In this document: piece by piece, positions 5,605 through 47,757 of the stretch
Position numbering within the stretch: position 1 is the stretch's first letter
Layout of the letters: every line of letters starts with the position of its first letter
Source: a virus
DNA length: 47,757 nucleotides
Direction: 5' to 3' (one strand)
Virus record (IMG/VR): IMGVR_UViG_3300042556_001041
Span: 1 to 47,757 of that record
Made by a program: the position numbers and the translations under genes
Notes under the pieces: generated by a model
The model's input: the letters and a program-made list of their open reading frames with translations, nothing else
Database searches by the model: none
What the model was told of the DNA's origin: nothing

Positions 5605-5900
5605 GCCATCACCGCCCCGAAGATGCCCAACTGCACCTTGCCGCCGGCCACGGGCACATCGGCGCCAACGTCACGGTAAGACGTCAACCCCAATGCGCCA
5701 TCATCACAGGCGTTGCCGGCATTTGCTGGCGTGAACGGTGCCGGTCTGACGTCAACCCCGCCCAGGGTCTGCCCGTGGATGCGGCAGGCGACCGAGACGC
5801 TGAACGTCCGACCGTCCCGCCAATCGCCTTTGCCGTGATGGTTGTCGCTGGCCGGGCATTTGCAACCGGCCGCCACGGCTTCGGGTGAACCTGGTGTCAT
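5601..5900 (-). CDS. Conserved small phage protein with GCKCP motif (99 aa)
   Basis: Begins MTPGSPEAVAAGCKCPASDN and later has ACRIHG. This opening (PGSPEA..GC.CP..DN) recurs in small phage proteins next to replication genes; no function is known to me. The Cys/His arrangement (CKC, then CRIH) could bind a metal. ATGA overlaps join it to the methyltransferase upstream and to rusA downstream. Confidence 0.75.
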   Translation of the reverse strand: MTPGSPEAVAAGCKCPASDNHHGKGDWRDGRTFSVSVACRIHGQTLGGVDVRPAPFTPANAGNACDDGALGLTSYRDVGADVPVAGGKVQLGIFGAVMA

Positions 5901-6631
5901 GCGGCACCGCCAAACAGGCCTAGTTGCCGCTCGCTTGCCGTGATCCGCTCCCGTGCCTTGGTGGCAAAGTCGCTGTCTCGCTCAACGCCAACAAAACGGC
6001 AATCCTCGGCAAGGGCGGCCATTGCGGTGCTGCCAGATCCCGTAAACGGGTCAAGGATTACCGAACCGGCCGGCGCCACCAGTCGAATCGCTCGCGCCAT
6101 CAGATCGACCGGCTTTTCGGCCGAGTGGCCTTCCTTGCGGTTTCCGGGTGTCCACTTGTGGGTCCAGACATCAGGCTCGTCGGTCTTGCGACGCTCAAAC
6201 TCAGCCATGGTGACGACGACGAAGCACTCGTGAACCTTCCGCAGCAGGAAACCCATGCCGAGCCCTTCACGGTGCCAGATGCCGATAACCGGCCGCTTGA
6301 TGCCGAGTTTGAAGCAGGCCGCCTCCACGCACATTGCCGCCCGCAGATCGCAGGTGAACCAGATGGCGCCCGTCAGACGCAGGACCCGCCGCCATTCCGA
6401 CATCTGCTCTCGCAGCCATGCCTCGTAGAATTGGGACTCCTGCGGCACGCCGCTGCGGGTTTCGGAGATGGAGACGAACGCCGACTCGCTGGACGTTCCG
6501 GCGTATGGCGGATCGGTCACGATGGCATCCACCGAGGCCGTCGGCATCCCCCGCAAAACAGCCAGACAATCCCCCGTCTCGATGTGCCACCGGGCCTCGC
6601 CGGTCAAAACTTGCTCAATCGTGGTCGTCAT
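5897..6631 (-). CDS. DNA adenine-type (N6/N4) methyltransferase
   Basis: 244 aa. Transfers a methyl group from S-adenosylmethionine to an exocyclic amino group in DNA. The catalytic motif IV is DPPY (40-43), the target-recognition region lies in the middle, then HSAEKP (169-174) and the SAM-binding motif I DPFTGSGST (194-202): the motif order of beta-class enzymes. No restriction partner is nearby, so it probably protects phage DNA or adjusts expression. Overlaps dnaB by 4 bases. Confidence 0.92.
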   Translation of the reverse strand: MTTTIEQVLTGEARWHIETGDCLAVLRGMPTASVDAIVTDPPYAGTSSESAFVSISETRSGVPQESQFYEAWLREQMSEWRRVLRLTGAIWFTCDLRAAMCVEAACFKLGIKRPVIGIWHREGLGMGFLLRKVHECFVVVTMAEFERRKTDEPDVWTHKWTPGNRKEGHSAEKPVDLMARAIRLVAPAGSVILDPFTGSGSTAMAALAEDCRFVGVERDSDFATKARERITASERQLGLFGGAA

Positions 6632-14599: not shown

Positions 14600-15609
14600 G
14601 GCGTCACCTCGTCGGCCAACCCGTTGCCGGGCTCCGGAGTCAGCACCTCGATCAGCGGTAGGCGCTTGTTCACCCGCTCGTGCTGCTCATGCACCCATTC
14701 CAGGGCGACGCCGAGTTGCCGGGCCGTGAGGGCATCACGGACGCCCCAGCGCTGGCCGATCCTGTCATTGAGCCAGCGGGCGTTTTTGCTGACCTCCCGG
14801 CTGTGCATCCCGACGCCGGCCATCTCGTCAGCGAGTTTGCCGACAGCTTTGTGCAGGCGGCGCCGCAGCATCGGGCGGGCCTCCATGTCGGCCTCAAGTT
14901 GCGTCAGGCGCTCGGCCTGTTCCGTCGCCGTGATCACAGCGGCCCTGGCCATGGCGTGAGCTTCGAGGGTGGCGGCGGCCAGCTCGGGCAGTTTGACCCC
15001 CAGGACCAGGGCGAGCTTATCGACCTCGGAGAGCGGGGCGGCCGGGGCCGGGATCTCGCCAGCGGCAACGGCAGCGTCGAGGTCGCGGACGTGCTTGCGG
15101 ATCTCCCGTGCCCGGTCGCCGCCGACGTTCATGGCGATGAGCGTGACGCCCTGCCGGTAGAACGCCGGGCGCTCGATACCACCGACAAAAATGGCGGTGT
15201 AGTCCTGACCTGGGCGCATCTCGTCTTGCCGCAACTCGGCCCAATGCCTCTCAATGGTCCGCAGCGACACGTCGAGGCCCTCGGCCACGTCTTGCAGCGT
15301 GTAGACCGGGCGGCCCTCGTGCATCCGCTCGTTGAGCATCCCGGTATGCCGAGCCACCGGCAGCGTCGGCTCAGGCGCCGGGGTCGTCGGGGTGATCACG
15401 GCCGGTTCGTCAAGGTTGCCGAGGTTGGCTGCCATGCGTGCCAGGGTTTTTGCGGCCATGTTCTGCCACCGCTCCGTGCCGTCGACGCAGCGGCGGATGG
15501 TGGTGTCGGAGACGGAGAGGGCGGCGCCGATCTCGGCATTGGTCTTGCCGGCGTGGATGGCGGCCAAGACGGCCTGCCGGATCTCGTCGCGGTTGGGGGT
15601 GGGTTTCAT
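14596..15609 (-). CDS. Phage antirepressor/regulatory protein (337 aa)
   Basis: An N-terminal HTH (KTNAEIGAALSVSDTTIRRC) is followed by a second HTH-like block (YTLQDVAEGLDVSLRTIERH). Then comes RPAFYRQGVTLIAMNVGGDR with AREIRKHVRDLD, which resembles ORF6N/BRO-type phage regulator domains. The C-terminal half is helical (LTQLEADMEARPMLRRRLHK). Likely counteracts repressors during induction, by family analogy only. ATGA overlaps on both sides. Confidence 0.7.
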   Translation of the reverse strand: MKPTPNRDEIRQAVLAAIHAGKTNAEIGAALSVSDTTIRRCVDGTERWQNMAAKTLARMAANLGNLDEPAVITPTTPAPEPTLPVARHTGMLNERMHEGRPVYTLQDVAEGLDVSLRTIERHWAELRQDEMRPGQDYTAIFVGGIERPAFYRQGVTLIAMNVGGDRAREIRKHVRDLDAAVAAGEIPAPAAPLSEVDKLALVLGVKLPELAAATLEAHAMARAAVITATEQAERLTQLEADMEARPMLRRRLHKAVGKLADEMAGVGMHSREVSKNARWLNDRIGQRWGVRDALTARQLGVALEWVHEQHERVNKRLPLIEVLTPEPGNGLADEVTP

Positions 15610-16472
15610 TGGGCCACCTCGGTTTCAGCGTCGATGCTGAACTTGTTGCGCAGCCCGTGGTTCATCTCGTTGAGGATGCCTGTCGCCCAGACCTTTTCGC
15701 CGCCGCTTTGGTAGTAGGCGTTCGCCCGTGCGATGCCATCCAAGAGCTTGTTGACGCCGATGGCCTTGATGCGGTCATGGAATCGCTTATCGTCAAGCGT
15801 GCCGGGGGCCTTGGTTTCGATGTGCCACAGGCCAGCAAGAATCCGCTCCACCATTGCGGATTCGGTCAGGATGGATTTGCCCATCCGCAGAACTTTGACA
15901 AACCGATCCCGGTCGATAGCGGCGCACCTGAGCGCCCATCCGATGCACTTGATCTCTCCGGGGTTTTTGGCGACCCGCTTGACGGTCAAGCCGATGTCGT
16001 CGAACGTCTCCGACACGAACACCGGCGTCTCGTCACCATGCGCCACCATCGCCCCGAATCGGTCTGCCACGGGCACGGGCTTGCGGTTAGTGTTGGCGTC
16101 GAGGAACCCGCCGGCCTCCTGGCTCACGTCGACGGTGTCGAACACGATGCACGGCAACTCTTTGATGTCGCTGCGCTTCCGTGCCGCCAGGAGACGGTGT
16201 TGCCCGTCAATGACCCAGAGTTCCCCGCCACGGCGTCCGACGATCAGCACGCCGCAGGCGATCCACGACCACGACGACGCAAGCTCTCCGACCTTGGTCA
16301 GCATCGGGGATCTTTGGTAGTCGGCGTGGACTCGGAGGTCGGACTTGGGCACCATCATCAGATGGCCCGGCCGGTCCTTCGTAGACCATCCCCACATGGC
16401 GATCTTGTCGACGCCACGATTGGTCAGTTCGTCCCCTTTGCTCCCGTTGAGCGTGGCGACTGATGTGTTCAT
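15606..16472 (-). CDS. ParB-like nuclease-fold protein (288 aa)
   Basis: From ATG 16472 with AAGAAGGG upstream. The ParB/Srx signature VIDGQHRLLAARKR lies at about 87-100, followed by LPCIVFD. The remainder is helical and ends in EMNHGLRNKFSID. In this fold the GxHR segment binds nucleotide or DNA. In phages such proteins are often regulators or DNA-modification accessories; partitioning is unlikely because no ParA is present. Confidence 0.8.
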   Translation of the reverse strand: MNTSVATLNGSKGDELTNRGVDKIAMWGWSTKDRPGHLMMVPKSDLRVHADYQRSPMLTKVGELASSWSWIACGVLIVGRRGGELWVIDGQHRLLAARKRSDIKELPCIVFDTVDVSQEAGGFLDANTNRKPVPVADRFGAMVAHGDETPVFVSETFDDIGLTVKRVAKNPGEIKCIGWALRCAAIDRDRFVKVLRMGKSILTESAMVERILAGLWHIETKAPGTLDDKRFHDRIKAIGVNKLLDGIARANAYYQSGGEKVWATGILNEMNHGLRNKFSIDAETEVAQ

Positions 16473-16497: not shown

Positions 16498-16569
16498 CTA
16501 GTGCTGGTCTGGTGTGACGGCCCATCCGAGGCCAAATAGAACGAGGATCAGGAGAATGGCGGCGATCAT
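16498..16569 (-). CDS. Single-transmembrane micropeptide (23 aa)
   Basis: MIAAILLILVLFGLG, then WAVTPDQH: one hydrophobic segment with a short polar tail. Its ATG overlaps the stop of the zinc-finger gene (ATGA), a pattern used throughout this operon, which argues for real translation. Candidates are a membrane effector or lysis/exclusion peptide; the sequence gives no more. Confidence 0.5.
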   Translation of the reverse strand: MIAAILLILVLFGLGWAVTPDQH

Positions 16570-17372
16570 GGGGCCTCGGGGCACCATGAGTCGTGGTTCT
16601 GCCTGCCGAGGGTGTCCGTCCCGTAGCGGCGGCATCTGGGGCAGCCGGCGACCGTCGTGACCGCCTGCCGTGGGGCGGCCTCGCTGAACCCGGAGAACGT
16701 GAAGCCCTTGCCGGTGATCGGGCCGGGGCGGTCGTAGCGGATGCGTGGCTTTGGCGCCTGATCCGGCCAGGTCTCGACTGGGTCAGTTGGACGGATCGCA
16801 GACTGCCGGGCTTTTGCCCTGTAGTCCTGCCGCCGTTCGTTGGCCCGTTTGCGTCGGCACTCGCTTTTGCAGTAGCGGACGCCGGGGCCGGACGGCCGGA
16901 ATAGCTGGTTGCAACCCTTGCACCGTGGGCGCTCTGGCGCTGTCCGCTCTGGGCTCTGTTTCGCCACTGCCGCCCACCGCTGGCGCTGATACTCGCTATG
17001 GCGCTTCGTGCGGCGCTGGCTGGTGCATCTGTCGGAGCAGCACATGCGCTGGGGGGATGCCGTGAGGAACGATCCGCCGCAGTTGGCGCAACGGCGCTCG
17101 GCCTTCACCGTTTCATCTGCTGGCGACCGATCCCGCTTGGCATCGCCAGCCGTCCGCATACAGATCCGGCCGCAGTAGACCTTGCGGGCGTCCTTTGTTG
17201 TGAAGCCGGCGCCGCATTTGAGGCAGTTGCGGGCCATCTCGACAACCTGAACCCTGATGCGGTCGTAGGTGTGGTTTTTGCGGCAACGGTTGGAGCAGTG
17301 CTGCCGGCGGCGTGTTTTGCTGGCGAACTCAGCGCCGCACTTGACGCACTGCAACTGGATCATGGCGCCCAT
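16566..17372 (-). CDS. Multi-zinc-finger protein, four tandem Cys4 fingers (268 aa)
   Basis: From ATG 17372, six bases after GGAGG. Four fingers share the exact spacing C-x2-C-x13-C-x3-C: C9/12/26/30, C50/53/67/71, C95/98/112/116 and C151/154/168/172, separated by basic linkers. Each has the form CxxCG..F......YC...C. A C-terminal module CPRCRRYG...HDSWC (244-264) resembles the end of the small protein at 22766-22975. Likely nucleic-acid binding. I do not know a named family with this build. Confidence 0.8.
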   Translation of the reverse strand: MGAMIQLQCVKCGAEFASKTRRRQHCSNRCRKNHTYDRIRVQVVEMARNCLKCGAGFTTKDARKVYCGRICMRTAGDAKRDRSPADETVKAERRCANCGGSFLTASPQRMCCSDRCTSQRRTKRHSEYQRQRWAAVAKQSPERTAPERPRCKGCNQLFRPSGPGVRYCKSECRRKRANERRQDYRAKARQSAIRPTDPVETWPDQAPKPRIRYDRPGPITGKGFTFSGFSEAAPRQAVTTVAGCPRCRRYGTDTLGRQNHDSWCPEAP

Positions 17373-17506
17373 CACTCACCTCCGACGGTGGCGACGGCCC
17401 AGCGTGGGGCGAGGGGGAAAGCCTGGGCGATCTCGACGGCGAGGAACCCGACGAGCGGGCGGCCGTAGACCAGGGCGAACGAGGGGCAGGAGTTGGGGCG
17501 GGTCAT
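17372..17506 (-). CDS. Small hypothetical protein (44 aa)
   Basis: ATG 17506 overlaps the stop of the C5 methyltransferase (ATGA), and its TGA shares a base with the next ATG (TGATG). MTRPNSCPSFALVYGRPLVG then FLAVEIAQAFPLAPRWAVAT. Hydrophobic but without a clean transmembrane helix. Its own tail encodes the GGAGG that serves the zinc-finger gene. Confidence 0.55.
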   Translation of the reverse strand: MTRPNSCPSFALVYGRPLVGFLAVEIAQAFPLAPRWAVATVGGE

Positions 17507-18423
17507 GCGGCACCGCCCATCGCCGCCGCAACCTGCGACAGCACGCCACGGGCCAGCGGCGGGGGCACGGCGTTGCCAAGCACCTTCACGGCGTCTTTGT
17601 GGCTCGCCGGCAGTTGGTAGCCGTCCGGGAACCCCATCGCCCGCCGGTATTCGTTGGGCGTCAGCATCCGCATCCGGTCGCCGCTGACGAGGGCGAAACG
17701 GTCCGTCGTCGTCACGGTGCCGAGGGGCATGTCCAGCGACCGGCCGCCATCCTCGTTGCCGTAGTAGGCCATCAGGAAGTCAGCGCCGTGGGCCTTGCGG
17801 CCGGCGACGATGCGGGCGAGTGTCTTGGGCGACCGGCCCGGCTTGTCGATCTCGGACCACGACCCGCCGCCGTCGATGATGGACCTGGCCGGAACCGCCG
17901 CCAGCTTTGGGCTGACGATCTCGATGCCTCGCCGGCGATGGCCGACGACGAACAGTCGCTCACGGTTCTGGGGGACGCCCCACTCGGAAGCGTTCAGAAC
18001 CTGCTCCGTCAGGTGGTAGCCGAGGGCTTGCAGGCTCATCCGCCAGAACGGATAGAGGCCCCAGCGTTGGAACTCGGGCACGTTCTCGACGACAAGCGCC
18101 TCGGGCCGGCGAACCTCGGCAGCGGTGACCACGGCCCAGGCCGTCGACCGTTGGGCGTCGTGGTGCGCCTGCTCCTTGCCCCGGGCGCGGCTGTGGCCCT
18201 GGCAGGCCGGCGACGCCATCAGCAAGTCAAAGTCGGGCACGTCGAGGAAGTTCGCCTGTTGCAGATCCTGGCAGGCGTGGGCGACGTGGGGATGGTTGGC
18301 CTTGTGCGTCTGGACGGCAATATCCCAGTGGTTTGCGGCCCACACGACCTGAATGGCGCCGGTCTGCTCAGCCCCGGTCGTCGTGCCGCCGCATCCGGCG
18401 AATAGGTCAATGGCTCGGATCAT
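17503..18423 (-). CDS. DNA cytosine-C5 methyltransferase
   Basis: 306 aa from ATG 18423. SAM motif I AIDLFAGCGGTTTG, catalytic motif IV SPACQGHSRARG (the Cys nucleophile is present, but Ala replaces the usual Pro before it), VVENVPEF (motif VI), QNRERLFVVG (motif VIII) and GNAVPPPLAR (motif X). Methylates a specific cytosine, presumably to escape restriction. No cognate endonuclease is nearby. ATGA overlap with the winged-helix gene upstream. Confidence 0.93.
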   Translation of the reverse strand: MIRAIDLFAGCGGTTTGAEQTGAIQVVWAANHWDIAVQTHKANHPHVAHACQDLQQANFLDVPDFDLLMASPACQGHSRARGKEQAHHDAQRSTAWAVVTAAEVRRPEALVVENVPEFQRWGLYPFWRMSLQALGYHLTEQVLNASEWGVPQNRERLFVVGHRRRGIEIVSPKLAAVPARSIIDGGGSWSEIDKPGRSPKTLARIVAGRKAHGADFLMAYYGNEDGGRSLDMPLGTVTTTDRFALVSGDRMRMLTPNEYRRAMGFPDGYQLPASHKDAVKVLGNAVPPPLARGVLSQVAAAMGGAA

Positions 18424-20130: not shown

Positions 20131-21639
20131 ATGCCAACGCACGCCGCCATCCTCTGCCGGGTCAGCACCGAGGCCCAGCGGGACAACACCAGCCTCGACG
20201 AGCAGCGCCGGATCCTGACCGAACTATGCGAGCGGCAAGGCTGGACGTGGGAGGCGTTCGAGGAGGTCGAGAGCGGCGGGGCAGGGGTCGCCAACCGGCC
20301 CATCCTCGCGGCCATCCTCGGGCGCATCGCCGCCGGGGAGTTTCAGCGCCTGGTGGTCTTGGCTCAAGACCGTCTCTCACGGGCGGGCGTGGGCGAACTG
20401 GAGCAGATCAGCGCAATCCTCGCCAAGATCGGGGCGCGCCTCGTCACCCAGTCCGGGGAGTTCGACCCGAACAACGCCGACCACACGCTAATCCAGGACA
20501 TCAACGCCGTGGTGGCGAAACGGGAACGGGCGGCCATCAAAGAGCGGACGATCCGGGGGCGGGAGGCGCGGGTGAAGGCGGGCGGGTTTGCCGGCCATGC
20601 CGTCCCGTTCGGCTGGCGGCGGATCTGGAACCCCGACGGCACCTACCGCTTTGAGATCGAACCCGACGAGGCCGCGGTCGTGCGGGCCATCGTCGACGCC
20701 TACGCCGAAGGGGTCGACGGGATCCACCTCGTCGCCGAGCGCATTGGCCTGCCGTTTGCGAAGGTCCGCTACATCCTGACCAACCCCCGCTACGCCGGAA
20801 TCGAGAGTTACCGGGCGGGGCGGGATGCCCGCCGCAAAACAGACCGGCCGCCCATCGTGGTCCCGTCGGCAGTCTGGCCGGCGATCATCACGGCCGATCA
20901 GTGGGCGGCGGTGCAGGCCGTCAAGTCTCGCCGTCGAGACGAGCCGAGGGCGTCGGGCATCGGGCGCGCCGGGCCGGCAAAGCACCCTCTGTCCGGGATC
21001 GTCGTCTGCCGCCGATGCGACCGGGGCATGACGATGTTGCAGAAGGCTGGCCGATCCTACTACCACTGCGGCTACCGGGACTGCCCGAGGCAGGACAACG
21101 CCCGGGCCGAGGACTGCCACCGGCTGACGCTGGCGGCCCTGCCGGCGATTCTTGCCCACCGCGAGGCGGAATTGCTCGTCCGGGCGACGGATGACGGGTC
21201 GGCGGCGGAATTGGCCGGGCTTCGTGCTGCGATCCTGCGGGCTGAGCAGTCGGAGTTAGACCTCTGGACCGAGCGCCAGGCCGGGCGGTTGGATCCGGCG
21301 CAGTGGTCCCGGATGAATGCCAGGCTGTCCGATGAGCGGGCGGGCATTGAGAGGCAGGCGGCGGCCATCGAGAGCAGGCGGCGTGCGCACGGGCCGGCAC
21401 CGATGACGGCGGGTGAGGCTGCGGACATCGTCGCCAACGCCGATCACATCCTCAGCGACTGGCCGACGTTGCGCCGGTTGTTCGCCGCCCTGCTGTCCCG
21501 TGTCGAGGTGGCGAAGGTCGCCTACGTCACCCACGAGTGCGGCCGGGGGCGTCGCCCGGTTATCGCTATCCGTGCCGCCGTTGACCATGACGGCGTGCGC
21601 TGGGAGGCTCCGGGCGTCGGTCCCGACTGTGACATCTAA
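20131..21639 (+). CDS. Large serine recombinase (integrase)
   Basis: 502 aa. Integrates and excises the phage by a Ser-linked mechanism. The catalytic domain opens HAAILCRVSTEAQRDNTSLD with nucleophile Ser12, then VVLAQDRLSRAG and the KRERAAIKERTIRG helix. The recombinase domain has PFGWRR and ILTNPRYAGI. The zinc ribbon is CRRCDRGM...YYHCGYRDC. A coiled-coil stretch (about 370-430) precedes the end. No good ribosome site precedes the ATG, so initiation may be weak. No excision factor is obvious; the HTH protein at 12643 is a candidate. Confidence 0.93.
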   Translation: MPTHAAILCRVSTEAQRDNTSLDEQRRILTELCERQGWTWEAFEEVESGGAGVANRPILAAILGRIAAGEFQRLVVLAQDRLSRAGVGELEQISAILAKIGARLVTQSGEFDPNNADHTLIQDINAVVAKRERAAIKERTIRGREARVKAGGFAGHAVPFGWRRIWNPDGTYRFEIEPDEAAVVRAIVDAYAEGVDGIHLVAERIGLPFAKVRYILTNPRYAGIESYRAGRDARRKTDRPPIVVPSAVWPAIITADQWAAVQAVKSRRRDEPRASGIGRAGPAKHPLSGIVVCRRCDRGMTMLQKAGRSYYHCGYRDCPRQDNARAEDCHRLTLAALPAILAHREAELLVRATDDGSAAELAGLRAAILRAEQSELDLWTERQAGRLDPAQWSRMNARLSDERAGIERQAAAIESRRRAHGPAPMTAGEAADIVANADHILSDWPTLRRLFAALLSRVEVAKVAYVTHECGRGRRPVIAIRAAVDHDGVRWEAPGVGPDCDI

Positions 21640-21802: not shown

Positions 21803-21817
21803 GACGAGGGGGACGAG
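21803..21817 (+). promoter_or_regulatory. Start-associated sequence, copy 1
   Basis: GACGAGGGGGACGAG directly abuts the ATG at 21818. The identical 15 bases abut the GTG at 22015. The GAGGGGG core can act as a ribosome site, which fixes both starts. Confidence 0.7.
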
Positions 21818-21955
21818 ATGACGACGACCGATGAAAAGCGCTTTACCTGCAAATGCGGGAAGTCGTTCAAGTCCAAGCTCGGATTGATGCAGCACACACA
21901 GAAGGCGCACGGCGTCGACCTCCGGAGCGCTCGCTATGACGAGTTGGTGATCTAG
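21818..21955 (+). CDS. C2H2-like zinc-finger protein (45 aa)
   Basis: FTCKCGKSFKSKLGLMQHTQ then KAHG: a single classical-looking finger, but with C-x-C in place of the usual C-x2-4-C and H-x4-H at the end. The rest is a short tail (VDLRSARYDELVI). C2H2 fingers are rare in phages. It shares the 15-nt start sequence with the DpdA-like gene downstream. Confidence 0.7.
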   Translation: MTTTDEKRFTCKCGKSFKSKLGLMQHTQKAHGVDLRSARYDELVI

Positions 21956-21968
21956 ACCCCAACCCCGA

Positions 21969-21989
21969 GCCGCAGCGGGTGACTGCGGC
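21969..21989 (+). ncRNA. Intergenic hairpin motif, copy 1
   Basis: CCGA-GCCGCAG-CGGGTGA-CTGCGGC: a 7-bp perfect stem with loop CGGGTGA, between the C2H2 and DpdA-like genes. The same flank and loop recur at 23015-23036 and 27165-27185. No T-tract follows, so it is not a standard terminator. Confidence 0.6.
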
Positions 21990-22014: not shown

Positions 22015-22779
22015 GTGAAGATTTACCTGGCGGGAGGGGCGATGGCATGGAAAGCGCAACTCCAAGGCCATAATCTTCTCGTCTCGTTCGCTGAGCGCAG
22101 CCAGTTAAAACTTCTGGATGCCGGGTGGGATGTGTCCGGGTGGATGCTAGACAGCGGCGCCTTTGCGGCGTGGACGCTGGGCAAGCCCGTGGACCTGGAA
22201 GCCTACGGGCGTTTCATCGACAAGCATGAAAGCCTGTTGGACTACGCCGTTTCGCTCGACGTGATCCCCGGCAAGCCCGGCCGGTTGCCGACACAGGATG
22301 AAGCGGCGGCAGCTGTTGAGCAGAGCCTCGCCAACCTGCAACGCTTAGAGCAGATGCTGGGCAAAGGCACGGTGATGCCGGTCTTTCACGAGGGCGACCC
22401 GCTGTGGTTGCTGGACGAGTACGCCGGGCGGGGATATGACCGCATCGCCCTCGGGGCCACAGCCTCACGGGGCAAGCCCGAACTGCTGGACTGGCTTCTG
22501 CCCATCTTCGACCGCCACCCGGCGCAGGACTTCCACGGGCTCGGGATGACTCAAAGTCGGATCATCGGCCACGTTCCGTTTGCCTCGGTGGACAGTACGA
22601 CATGGTTGAACTTCGTCCGGTATGGCGTGGACAGCAACACCTACCTACTCAAGGGGCGCACCCGTGAGTTCCTGCGGGCCTTGGGTATCGCCGCCCTGCA
22701 TGACATTGCCCAATGCCCGAGGGGCGTACAGGCGACCAGAGACGGCCAATTAAGGATGTTCCCTGATGAGGCGGTGTAG
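22015..22779 (+). CDS. DpdA-like tRNA-guanine-transglycosylase-fold protein (7-deazaguanine DNA modification)
   Basis: 254 aa. Motifs: LDSGAFAAW (45-53), SLDVIPG (80-86, candidate catalytic Asp82), MPVFHEGD (121-128), YDRIALGA (141-148), FHGLGMTQ (173-180) and SVDSTTW (191-197). This is the pattern of short phage TGT-like proteins of the DpdA group, which swap guanine in DNA for a 7-deazaguanine base. The zinc site of tRNA TGTs is absent. No preQ0 synthesis genes (folE, queD, queE, queC types) were found, so host precursor would be needed. The activity is inferred from family resemblance only. Confidence 0.75.
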   Translation: MKIYLAGGAMAWKAQLQGHNLLVSFAERSQLKLLDAGWDVSGWMLDSGAFAAWTLGKPVDLEAYGRFIDKHESLLDYAVSLDVIPGKPGRLPTQDEAAAAVEQSLANLQRLEQMLGKGTVMPVFHEGDPLWLLDEYAGRGYDRIALGATASRGKPELLDWLLPIFDRHPAQDFHGLGMTQSRIIGHVPFASVDSTTWLNFVRYGVDSNTYLLKGRTREFLRALGIAALHDIAQCPRGVQATRDGQLRMFPDEAV

Positions 22780-22975
22780 TTGTGGGCGAGAGGCCAGGCC
22801 GGCTGGCATCTACTGCGGCGACGAGTGCAAGTGGGAAGCGAAGAAGGCTCGACTACGGGAGCGTAGACGTGTCGCCAACGGATACCTGCGCTGCTGTCTC
22901 TGCGACAGGGTTGGGGGCAAGCACTGGGACTGGTGCAAGCGATCAGGGGTGGGCGTCGGTGCTGGCCAGAGTTGA
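22766..22975 (+). CDS. Small two-module zinc protein (69 aa)
   Basis: Overlaps the DpdA-like gene by 14 bases. First module CSCGREARPAGIYCGDEC (C4, C6, C17, C21), a compressed form of the fingers in the protein at 16566-17372. Second module CCLCDRVGGKHWDWC matches that protein's C-terminal CxxC.R.G...H..WC unit. Probably a mini-paralogue. Its coupling to DpdA suggests a partner or DNA-binding adaptor. Confidence 0.7.
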   Translation: MRRCSCGREARPAGIYCGDECKWEAKKARLRERRRVANGYLRCCLCDRVGGKHWDWCKRSGVGVGAGQS

Positions 22976-23014
22976 GGCCGGCGAACAGATGGACGCCCCG
23001 TGTTAGACCCCCGA

Positions 23015-23036
23015 GCCGCAGCGGGTTGACTGCGGC
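23015..23036 (+). ncRNA. Intergenic hairpin motif, copy 2
   Basis: GCCGCAG (23015-23021), loop CGGGTTGA, CTGCGGC (23030-23036), with CCGA before it. A second hairpin GCCCC-AC-GGGGC follows at about 23041-23052. Lies between the small zinc gene and the coiled-coil gene. Confidence 0.6.
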
Positions 23037-23070: not shown

Positions 23071-23472
23071 ATGAGCGAAGACACGGCGTCATCGCAGGCG
23101 TACCCAGGTTGCACGACCATGCGCCTGATCGAGCGGGTCGAGCGGGTAAAGGCCGAGCGTGACCGCTACATGGCCGAGGCGTCCGAGCGGCAGCAGGCCA
23201 TCGGCAGGCTTGAGGCCGAGCGGGACGCCCTCGCTGCCCAGCTTGAGCGGGATTGCAACGCCCTCAACTGCCTGATTGACGACGAGCGGGCAATCAATCA
23301 GACGATGGCTGCCCAGTGTGCTGCATTGGCCGAGGAATGCGGCGCCAACCCCAACGACATCCCCGCCGCCGCTGCCGTGTATCTTGCGGCTGAGCGGGCC
23401 ATGGAGGCGCACGGCGATCCGGTGATGTGGACGCCGGCCCTAATCGCATGGCGGAAGGCGGCAGGCAAATGA
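23071..23472 (+). CDS. Coiled-coil protein (133 aa)
   Basis: MRLIERVERVKAERDRYMAE and EASERQQAIGRLEAERDALA form a clear heptad coiled coil (about 17-62). A helical C-terminal half follows with VYLAAERAMEAHGDP and ALIAWRKAAG. ATG 23071 follows GAGGGG. Last gene of the plus-strand cassette; role unknown. Confidence 0.75.
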   Translation: MSEDTASSQAYPGCTTMRLIERVERVKAERDRYMAEASERQQAIGRLEAERDALAAQLERDCNALNCLIDDERAINQTMAAQCAALAEECGANPNDIPAAAAVYLAAERAMEAHGDPVMWTPALIAWRKAAGK

Positions 23473-47170: not shown

Positions 47171-47757
47171 CACAGGGCATCCTCATCAAGGTCGTATCGC
47201 AGGAAGCATCGGCAACGTACCGACTCAGACCCGCCGCCGAGCGAGCCGTCGCCGGGGTGCATCAACTCGACGCCCCCGACCGTGAAAGGCTCGGTCTGCT
47301 TGTGCTTCTGGCCGTCGGCGGCCTTGTGGGTGGGTCGGACCCGATGGTCTCGGGTGCTGATCCATTCCTTTGTCAGCGGCAGACCCGAGGCGTCAGCCCC
47401 GGCCGCCTTGCCAAGTTCGGAGGCGTTGACCGTCTCGGTGACGGCGATGGTGTCGGCTCGCGTCTCGACCATCTGCACGACCTCGGCGCCGATGGGCTCA
47501 CCGGCAGCGACGACTTCCTCGGCCGCCCACCGCTCATAGGCGGCGTCGACGGCAACCATGATGGCGTCGGCATCCTCGCCGGCGGCGATCAGTTCCAAGA
47601 CCCGGCCCTTGATGGCTTTCGCCGTCGTGGACTGGATCATGGCGGCCCGATCAGGACCGTGGGCGATGATGTAGTTGAGGACGTAGGTTTCGATGGCCTT
47701 GAGTTCGTCGTCAGACGGTGCCGCCTTGAGTTCCGCCGGCCCGGTCCCGTGCTTGAG
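47170..47757 (-). CDS. Portal-MuF fusion, C-terminal part (5' end continues at position 1)
   Basis: This is the C-terminal portion of the same gene as 1-1696; bases 47631-47757 duplicate 1-127. The segment carries the MuF/SPP1 gp7 signature: a helical region with TRADTIAVTETVNAS, then WISTRDHRVRPTHKAADGQ, and an ending with RCRCFLRYD. In the family this domain is a minor head protein or the carrier domain of ejected effectors. No separate MuF gene is seen elsewhere, so the fusion probably supplies that role. No toxin domain follows; the protein ends about 16 residues after the RCRC motif. Confidence 0.88.
   Translation of the reverse strand, partial: LKHGTGPAELKAAPSDDELKAIETYVLNYIIAHGPDRAAMIQSTTAKAIKGRVLELIAAGEDADAIMVAVDAAYERWAAEEVVAAGEPIGAEVVQMVETRADTIAVTETVNASELGKAAGADASGLPLTKEWISTRDHRVRPTHKAADGQKHKQTEPFTVGGVELMHPGDGSLGGGSESVRCRCFLRYDLDEDAL
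47631..47757. repeat. Terminal direct repeat, second copy
   Basis: Identical to 1-127; overlap of a circular contig. Confidence 0.93.

Follow-up and report, generated by a model that had tools for sequence, protein, structure and literature searches.

The gene at 22015-22779 of the viral genome analysed here specifies a member of the DpdA family. It probably functions as a short DNA-guanine transglycosylase that uses a 7-deazaguanine made by the host, with partial protection from restriction as the likely benefit. DpdA enzymes confer resistance to restriction on DNA by putting a modified base in place of guanine. All genes for synthesis of the precursor are absent from this genome, and a small cysteine-rich reading frame overlapping the gene is unlikely to be its partner.

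Genome and position of the dpdA-like gene

The sequence, called the window in the following, is one IMG/VR virus record of 47,757 nt (IMGVR_UViG_3300042556_001041). Positions 1-127 are identical to 47631-47757, forming an exact terminal direct repeat of 127 bp, and a portal-like reading frame on the minus strand at the left end continues into this repeat. The record is therefore most likely a complete circular genome of 47,630 bp with 66% GC, cut inside the portal region. On the left side, genes for terminase, DnaB, RecT, RusA, methyltransferases, and regulators are located on the minus strand, and on the right side the head and tail genes, also on the minus strand. Between these blocks lies a plus-strand cassette consisting of a serine integrase gene, a 45-aa ORF, dpdA, a 69-aa ORF, and the gene for a 133-aa protein. 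The serine integrase places dpdA in a lysogeny or accessory cassette, and integrase and a repressor-like gene together indicate a temperate phage. When capsid and terminase were used to look for the host, the best capsid match was to a Sinorhizobium phage with 39%. The relevant features are as follows.

5897..6631, minus strand: N6/N4 DNA methyltransferase (Pfam PF01555, E = 2e-25)
15606..16472, minus strand: ParB/DGQHR-domain protein, distant from dpdA (PHROG_1033 ParB-like, E = 4e-13; TIGR03187 DGQHR, E = 2e-6, below the cut-off)
17503..18423, minus strand: C5-cytosine DNA methyltransferase, a separate and independent modification gene of this phage (Pfam PF00145, E = 1e-47)
20131..21639, plus strand: large serine integrase (PHROG_95, E = 7e-70; Pfam Resolvase and Recombinase)
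21818..21955, plus strand: 45-aa ORF of C2H2-like zinc-finger type, located between the integrase gene and dpdA (zf-C2H2 of Pfam matched below threshold, E = 0.0018)
21963..21980, plus strand: left copy of the exact direct repeat CCCCGAGCCGCAGCGGGT (18 nt), at a distance of 34 nt upstream of dpdA and adjoining a CCGCAG/CTGCGG hairpin
22015..22779, plus strand: dpdA-like gene, 254-aa DNA-guanine transglycosylase homologue (PHROG_887, 7UI4 profile match, BFVD fold matches)
22766..22975, plus strand: 69-aa Cys-rich ORF, possible translationally coupled zinc-ribbon protein, as read from the sequence
23009..23026, plus strand: right copy of CCCCGAGCCGCAGCGGGT, 33 nt downstream of the 69-aa ORF
23071-23472, plus strand: 133-aa protein of the cassette

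Sequence and predicted fold of the DpdA-like protein

The gene starts with GTG at 22015 and ends with the stop at 22779, specifying 254 aa. The start is backed by the closest relative, encoded on a 10.3-kb contig (L002) and 57% identical over the full length, which opens with MKIYLAG at the same point. A string of DpdA-type motifs had been noted for this gene in the initial annotation, and all five are present: LDSGAF (45-50), SLDVIPG (80-86), PVFHEG (122-127), HGLGMT (174-179), and SVDSTTW (191-197). PHROG_887, named 'queuine tRNA-ribosyltransferase', matches the protein with E = 8e-39. A profile of 63 relatives gave one convincing match to a solved structure, the DNA-guanine transglycosylase 7UI4 (E = 7.8e-5), with the motifs in order. 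Five positions are invariant across these 63 relatives (D46, G48, A49, H174, D193), and five more are nearly so (D82, P122, H125, S191, W197). The core of the TGT superfamily is present, with the catalytic Asp pair and the motif order DSGA - LDxI - HGxG - xDSxxW. The roles of the Asp residues are established from TGT enzymology; by analogy, D193 (SVDSTTW) is predicted to be the nucleophile, D46 (LDSGAF) the general base, and D82 (SLDVIPG) the base-binding residue. H174, the His of HGLG, aligns with His196 of the Nonagvirus DpdA (L014), and a His at 196 is diagnostic for 9g-type DpdA and absent in DpdA2 (Hutinet et al. 2019, PMC6884629). The NCBIfam model for DpdA (NF041059, a bacterial equivalog) scored 12.8 bits against a curated cut-off of 200, and the 9g-type Nonagvirus DpdA reached only 14.1 bits. 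As a membership test the NCBIfam and PADLOC models were set aside as uninformative, since 9g-type phage DpdA fails them too.

An AlphaFold2 model of the protein was obtained with a pLDDT of 82 and a pTM of 0.77, the C-terminal fifth being of low confidence. Comparison of such a model with DpdA and TGT had been suggested as a check, a match to a TIM barrel other than TGT being expected if the assignment was wrong. In the BFVD fold search every named match at E<=1e-5 was a queuine transglycosylase/DpdA or an uncharacterised phage protein. The best one was Mufasa8 gp90 (TM 0.70, rmsd 2.7), whose gene is adjoined by a full preQ0 operon. A match at 2.4e-5 was protein R9TGF0 of Vibrio phage nt-1, which we take to be the DpdA2 of this phage. 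The best 50 hits of the PDB fold search were generic TIM barrels only, with TM values of about 0.5 or less, which we read as a lack of discrimination; the specific matches were all on the side of DpdA/TGT. Judged from sequence and model, the 254-aa protein belongs to the DpdA family and has a predicted transglycosylase fold, and a chance match is far excluded.

Membership in the same fold superfamily and the PHROG name could also indicate a tRNA-guanine transglycosylase (TGT) with host tRNA and not DNA as its substrate. This appears highly improbable, because by its motifs the protein is nearest to characterised enzymes that act on DNA, and it carries DSGA where TGT has DSGG. Moreover, a C-terminal zinc site of the TGT type (CxCxxC...H) was not found in the protein, which contains a single Cys, C234.

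Absence of precursor synthesis genes and relatives of the gene

FolE, QueC, QueD, QueE, and QueF were not detected in the window by iterated searches with phage proteins, and the Pfam families PTPS (QueD), QueC, FolE, and YhhQ had zero matches there, while controls worked. Since the genome is complete and circular, the absence of FolE, QueD, QueC, and QueE is real, and the initial annotation was right in stating that no preQ0 or queuosine synthesis gene is present. With DpdA encoded and no genes for preQ0 or G+ synthesis in the genome, the phage corresponds to the DpdA-only phages (group 3 in Hutinet 2019).

Relatives of the protein are encoded by 206 phage records, all with less than 60% identity; relatives of the cassette at the DNA level were not found in phages. 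A scan of genome contigs for further loci revealed one distant locus only. Among 77 non-redundant viral relatives, collected by the motif MKIYLAG at the first residues so that proportions describe this sample and not all DpdAs, 61 have at least two preQ0 genes near dpdA. If at least 3.5 kb of flanking sequence was available on each side, two or more such genes were found beside dpdA in 41 out of 44. No preQ0 genes were detected within the 10.3-kb stretch of L002. From these numbers, window and L002 represent an orphaned lineage in a family mostly tied to preQ0 operons. Short proteins are not unusual in this family: 28 of 36 relatives with no more than 262 aa are located in preQ0 operons, which indicates that the short form of DpdA belongs to the preQ0 pathway.

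Phylogenetic trees paired the window protein with L002 on a long branch (support 100/100). In two trees the protein grouped with the DpdA-only branch (MED16/7-11/SfI), with weak support of 87 and 89, and in a third tree with more members it was placed near Mufasa8/phiSM (74/76). An AU test of the grouping with the DpdA-only branch (MED16, 7-11, SfI, Epa33) gave a p-AU of 0.377, neither establishing nor rejecting it. The window gene and that of L002 appear to form a deep branch unlike the characterised DpdA-only enzymes. A deep alignment (A2) was discarded for the pattern scan as too divergent.

Variation of the first motif was seen in other loci. The DpdA-like protein of L040:7986-8813, encoded beside preQ0 genes, has the TGT-type DSGG motif (DSGGYS) in place of DSGA, and those of L079, L080, and L092 have DSGVF.

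The overlapping 69-aa ORF and the flanking repeats

The 69-aa ORF overlaps the stop of dpdA by 14 nt, as described initially, and has a fair ribosome-binding site, AAGGA, 9 nt before its ATG. It contains two Cys modules, CSC..YCGDEC and CCLC..HWDWC. The initial annotation regarded its product as a zinc-protein adaptor coupled to DpdA. In such a two-protein unit, the zinc protein would supply a missing zinc site or guide DpdA to DNA. Overlap and AAGGA suggest coupled translation, among the 262 uncalled ORFs of the window only this one shows the two-module arrangement of Cys, and the 18-nt repeats bracket exactly both ORFs, which may have arrived together.

Apart from CCCCGAGCCGCAGCGGGT, the genome contains just one other non-simple 18-mer that is exactly repeated. 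Stem-loops at the two copies are little or no better than those of shuffled sequences (z of -1.4 and -0.6). The pair is possibly a cassette boundary or a repeated leader, and its position is the one hint that dpdA and the 69-aa ORF form a unit. A second repeat, the 15-nt leader GACGAGGGGGACGAG, occurs in identical form at 21803 and 22000, directly before the starts of the 45-aa ORF and dpdA, with no further copies within two mismatches. It is a ribosome-binding leader common to these two reading frames.

Other observations argue against the two-protein unit, which we consider very unlikely. For the 69-aa ORF no homologue was detected in the viral contigs and phages searched, and Pfam, PHROGs, and NCBIfam yielded no matching family. 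Its synonymous codon use is equalled or beaten by 52% of the non-gene ORFs, which corresponds to the non-gene median, and it is not certain that the ORF is a gene. Co-occurrence of a zinc gene with dpdA had been named as a check on the adaptor, and a Cys-rich ORF follows dpdA in none of 91 other loci, the closest relative included (1/92 being the window itself). For comparison, such an ORF followed FolE in 2/75, QueC in 1/63, and QueD in 0/65 cases. In L002, a Dam-type methyltransferase gene directly follows dpdA; for the immediate clade, co-occurrence is judged from this one case, L002 being the only close relative. A zinc site acting in trans was also rejected, because the DpdAs examined (L014, P0001) lack a Cys cluster that would need completion; the 9g type has none at the C-terminus. 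On co-occurrence, homology, and codon use, the zinc ORF was dismissed as a conserved partner and the adaptor proposal was abandoned.

A resemblance of the small ORF to pieces of another phage protein had been pointed out as well. Its modules are similar to those of a 268-aa zinc protein of the phage, at the C-terminus as judged by eye, but the local score of 48 was reached by 11 of 300 composition shuffles and is only suggestive. The 268-aa protein (16566-17372, minus strand) is built from four zinc-ribbon modules in tandem (type CxxC...HCSxRC) and a C-terminal CPRC...HDSWC module; it is matched in part by an HNH family of PHROGs and belongs to no Pfam family.

A ParB-like companion of DpdA

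A ParB-like gene is located within 400 bp of dpdA and on the same strand in 41 of the 88 non-redundant loci, mostly immediately upstream. The bacterial DpdB, a ParB-like ATPase, works with DpdA, and some clusters may do without it (PMC12839542); a link of ParB and DpdA has been suggested for a mycobacteriophage (PMC6392294). These neighbour counts suggest that the protein regularly accompanying phage DpdA is ParB-like and not a zinc protein, matching the known partner DpdB. In the window, the ParB/DGQHR protein is weakly related to these ParB neighbours, with an E of 1e-4 in one iterated search and no match in two others. As a guess, it is the likelier candidate for a DpdB-like partner compared to the zinc ORF.

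Loci with a ParB-like gene directly beside dpdA are found among L004-L097, L009, L011, L015, and L017, a linkage far stronger than that of any zinc gene. One of them, L015:670-2751 of Microbacterium phage Nicole72, contains two tandem DpdA-like genes near ParB-like and QueC-like genes.

Comparison with characterised DpdA systems

The motif string and the columns of D46, D82, H174, and D193 are shared with DpdA1 of the 9g type (Enterobacteria phage 9g, CAjan, Nonagvirus Bas19), which also has the diagnostic His (residue 196) and lacks a C-terminal zinc cluster. In contrast to the 9g type, the window protein is shorter (254 aa versus 317 aa in the Nonagvirus protein, to which it is about 27% identical), and its gene is located by a serine integrase gene in a temperate phage without adjoining preQ0 genes. 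Salmonella phage 7-11 and Pantoea phage MED16 likewise have a single short dpdA (234-261 aa) and no precursor synthesis, but their branch is characterised by DNGAF and IPD motifs instead of DSGAF and SLDVIPG. Mufasa8 gp90 and the DpdA of Cellulophaga phiSM resemble the window protein in short form and motifs, yet a complete FolE/QueC/QueD/QueE set is found alongside those genes. The bacterial DpdA (7UI4), which acts with DpdB and DpdC, has the core and motif order in common with the window protein, but its size exceeds 400 aa and it is part of a large restriction-modification cluster, whereas a ParB-like (DpdB-like) gene does not adjoin the window dpdA.

Phages with DpdA but without preQ0 synthesis genes, 76 in number, are the largest group of DpdA phages, and a precursor from the host or a scavenged or imported one has been proposed for them (Hutinet et al. 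2019, PMC6884629). With the dpdA gene of 9g alone, dPreQ0 appeared in plasmid DNA and amounted to 0.03-0.3% of G (PMC6884629). In virion DNA of MED16, which has dpdA only, dADG was detected by LC-MS at about 0.13% of G, and according to the same paper dADG is also present in the virion DNA of phage 7-11, which again has no synthesis genes (PMC8306585). The initial annotation described a minimal unit using host precursor and considered it new. A DpdA-type protein without synthesis genes is indeed present and a host precursor is the natural assumption; the novelty was lost to the 76 published phages. DpdA-only phages are already known, and the window is a divergent further case.

Possible function of the short DpdA

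By the reading considered probable above, the enzyme would replace a small share of guanines by a 7-deazaguanine, in the DNA of the phage and perhaps also in that of its lysogen. The incoming base would be preQ0, possibly found as dADG, and would be made by the host for the queuosine pathway of tRNA. D193 is expected to attack the sugar of the target deoxyguanosine so that guanine leaves and 7-deazaguanine takes its place, with D46 serving as general acid/base. The outcome would be partial protection from restriction enzymes. For these steps the 69-aa ORF would not be needed, and any protein partner would more likely be the ParB/DGQHR protein at 15606-16472.

The gene could also be idle or decaying, in a host without the precursor or the needed partner, leaving the phage DNA unmodified. 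In the DpdA-only Mycobacterium phage Orion no 7-deazaguanine was found, and its host makes no preQ0 (PMC8306585); in addition, the window dpdA lacks the neighbouring ParB-like gene seen in 41/88 relatives. Since all active-site residues are intact and 57% identity to L002 over the full length argues for continuing selection, loss of function is regarded as unlikely. If active, the enzyme would be one more DpdA that obtains its modified base wholly from the host, here in a temperate phage. It would then contribute to a question left open by the 2019 survey, namely whether phages with DpdA only are generally modified.

A more elaborate arrangement would have dpdA and the 69-aa ORF moving as a cassette bracketed by the 18-nt repeats, with the zinc protein or the ParB/DGQHR protein directing host-derived 7-deazaguanine to chosen DNA sites, also in the prophage state. 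Lysogeny itself would then change the base content of host DNA, but we regard this arrangement as extremely improbable.

Among the complete genomes of E. coli (5,426), 100 carry the gene of the lambdoid, DpdA-only phage SfI (L010:4950-5702) on the chromosome with at least 99% identity, 95 of them over most of its length; it is annotated as hypothetical protein among the matches listed. Lambdoid prophages in about 95/5,426 E. coli genomes carry a short DpdA-like gene. In the literature, no report was found on modification of SfI-type lysogens or virions. In HK106, the DpdA-like gene is located close to a phage integrase gene, as in the window.
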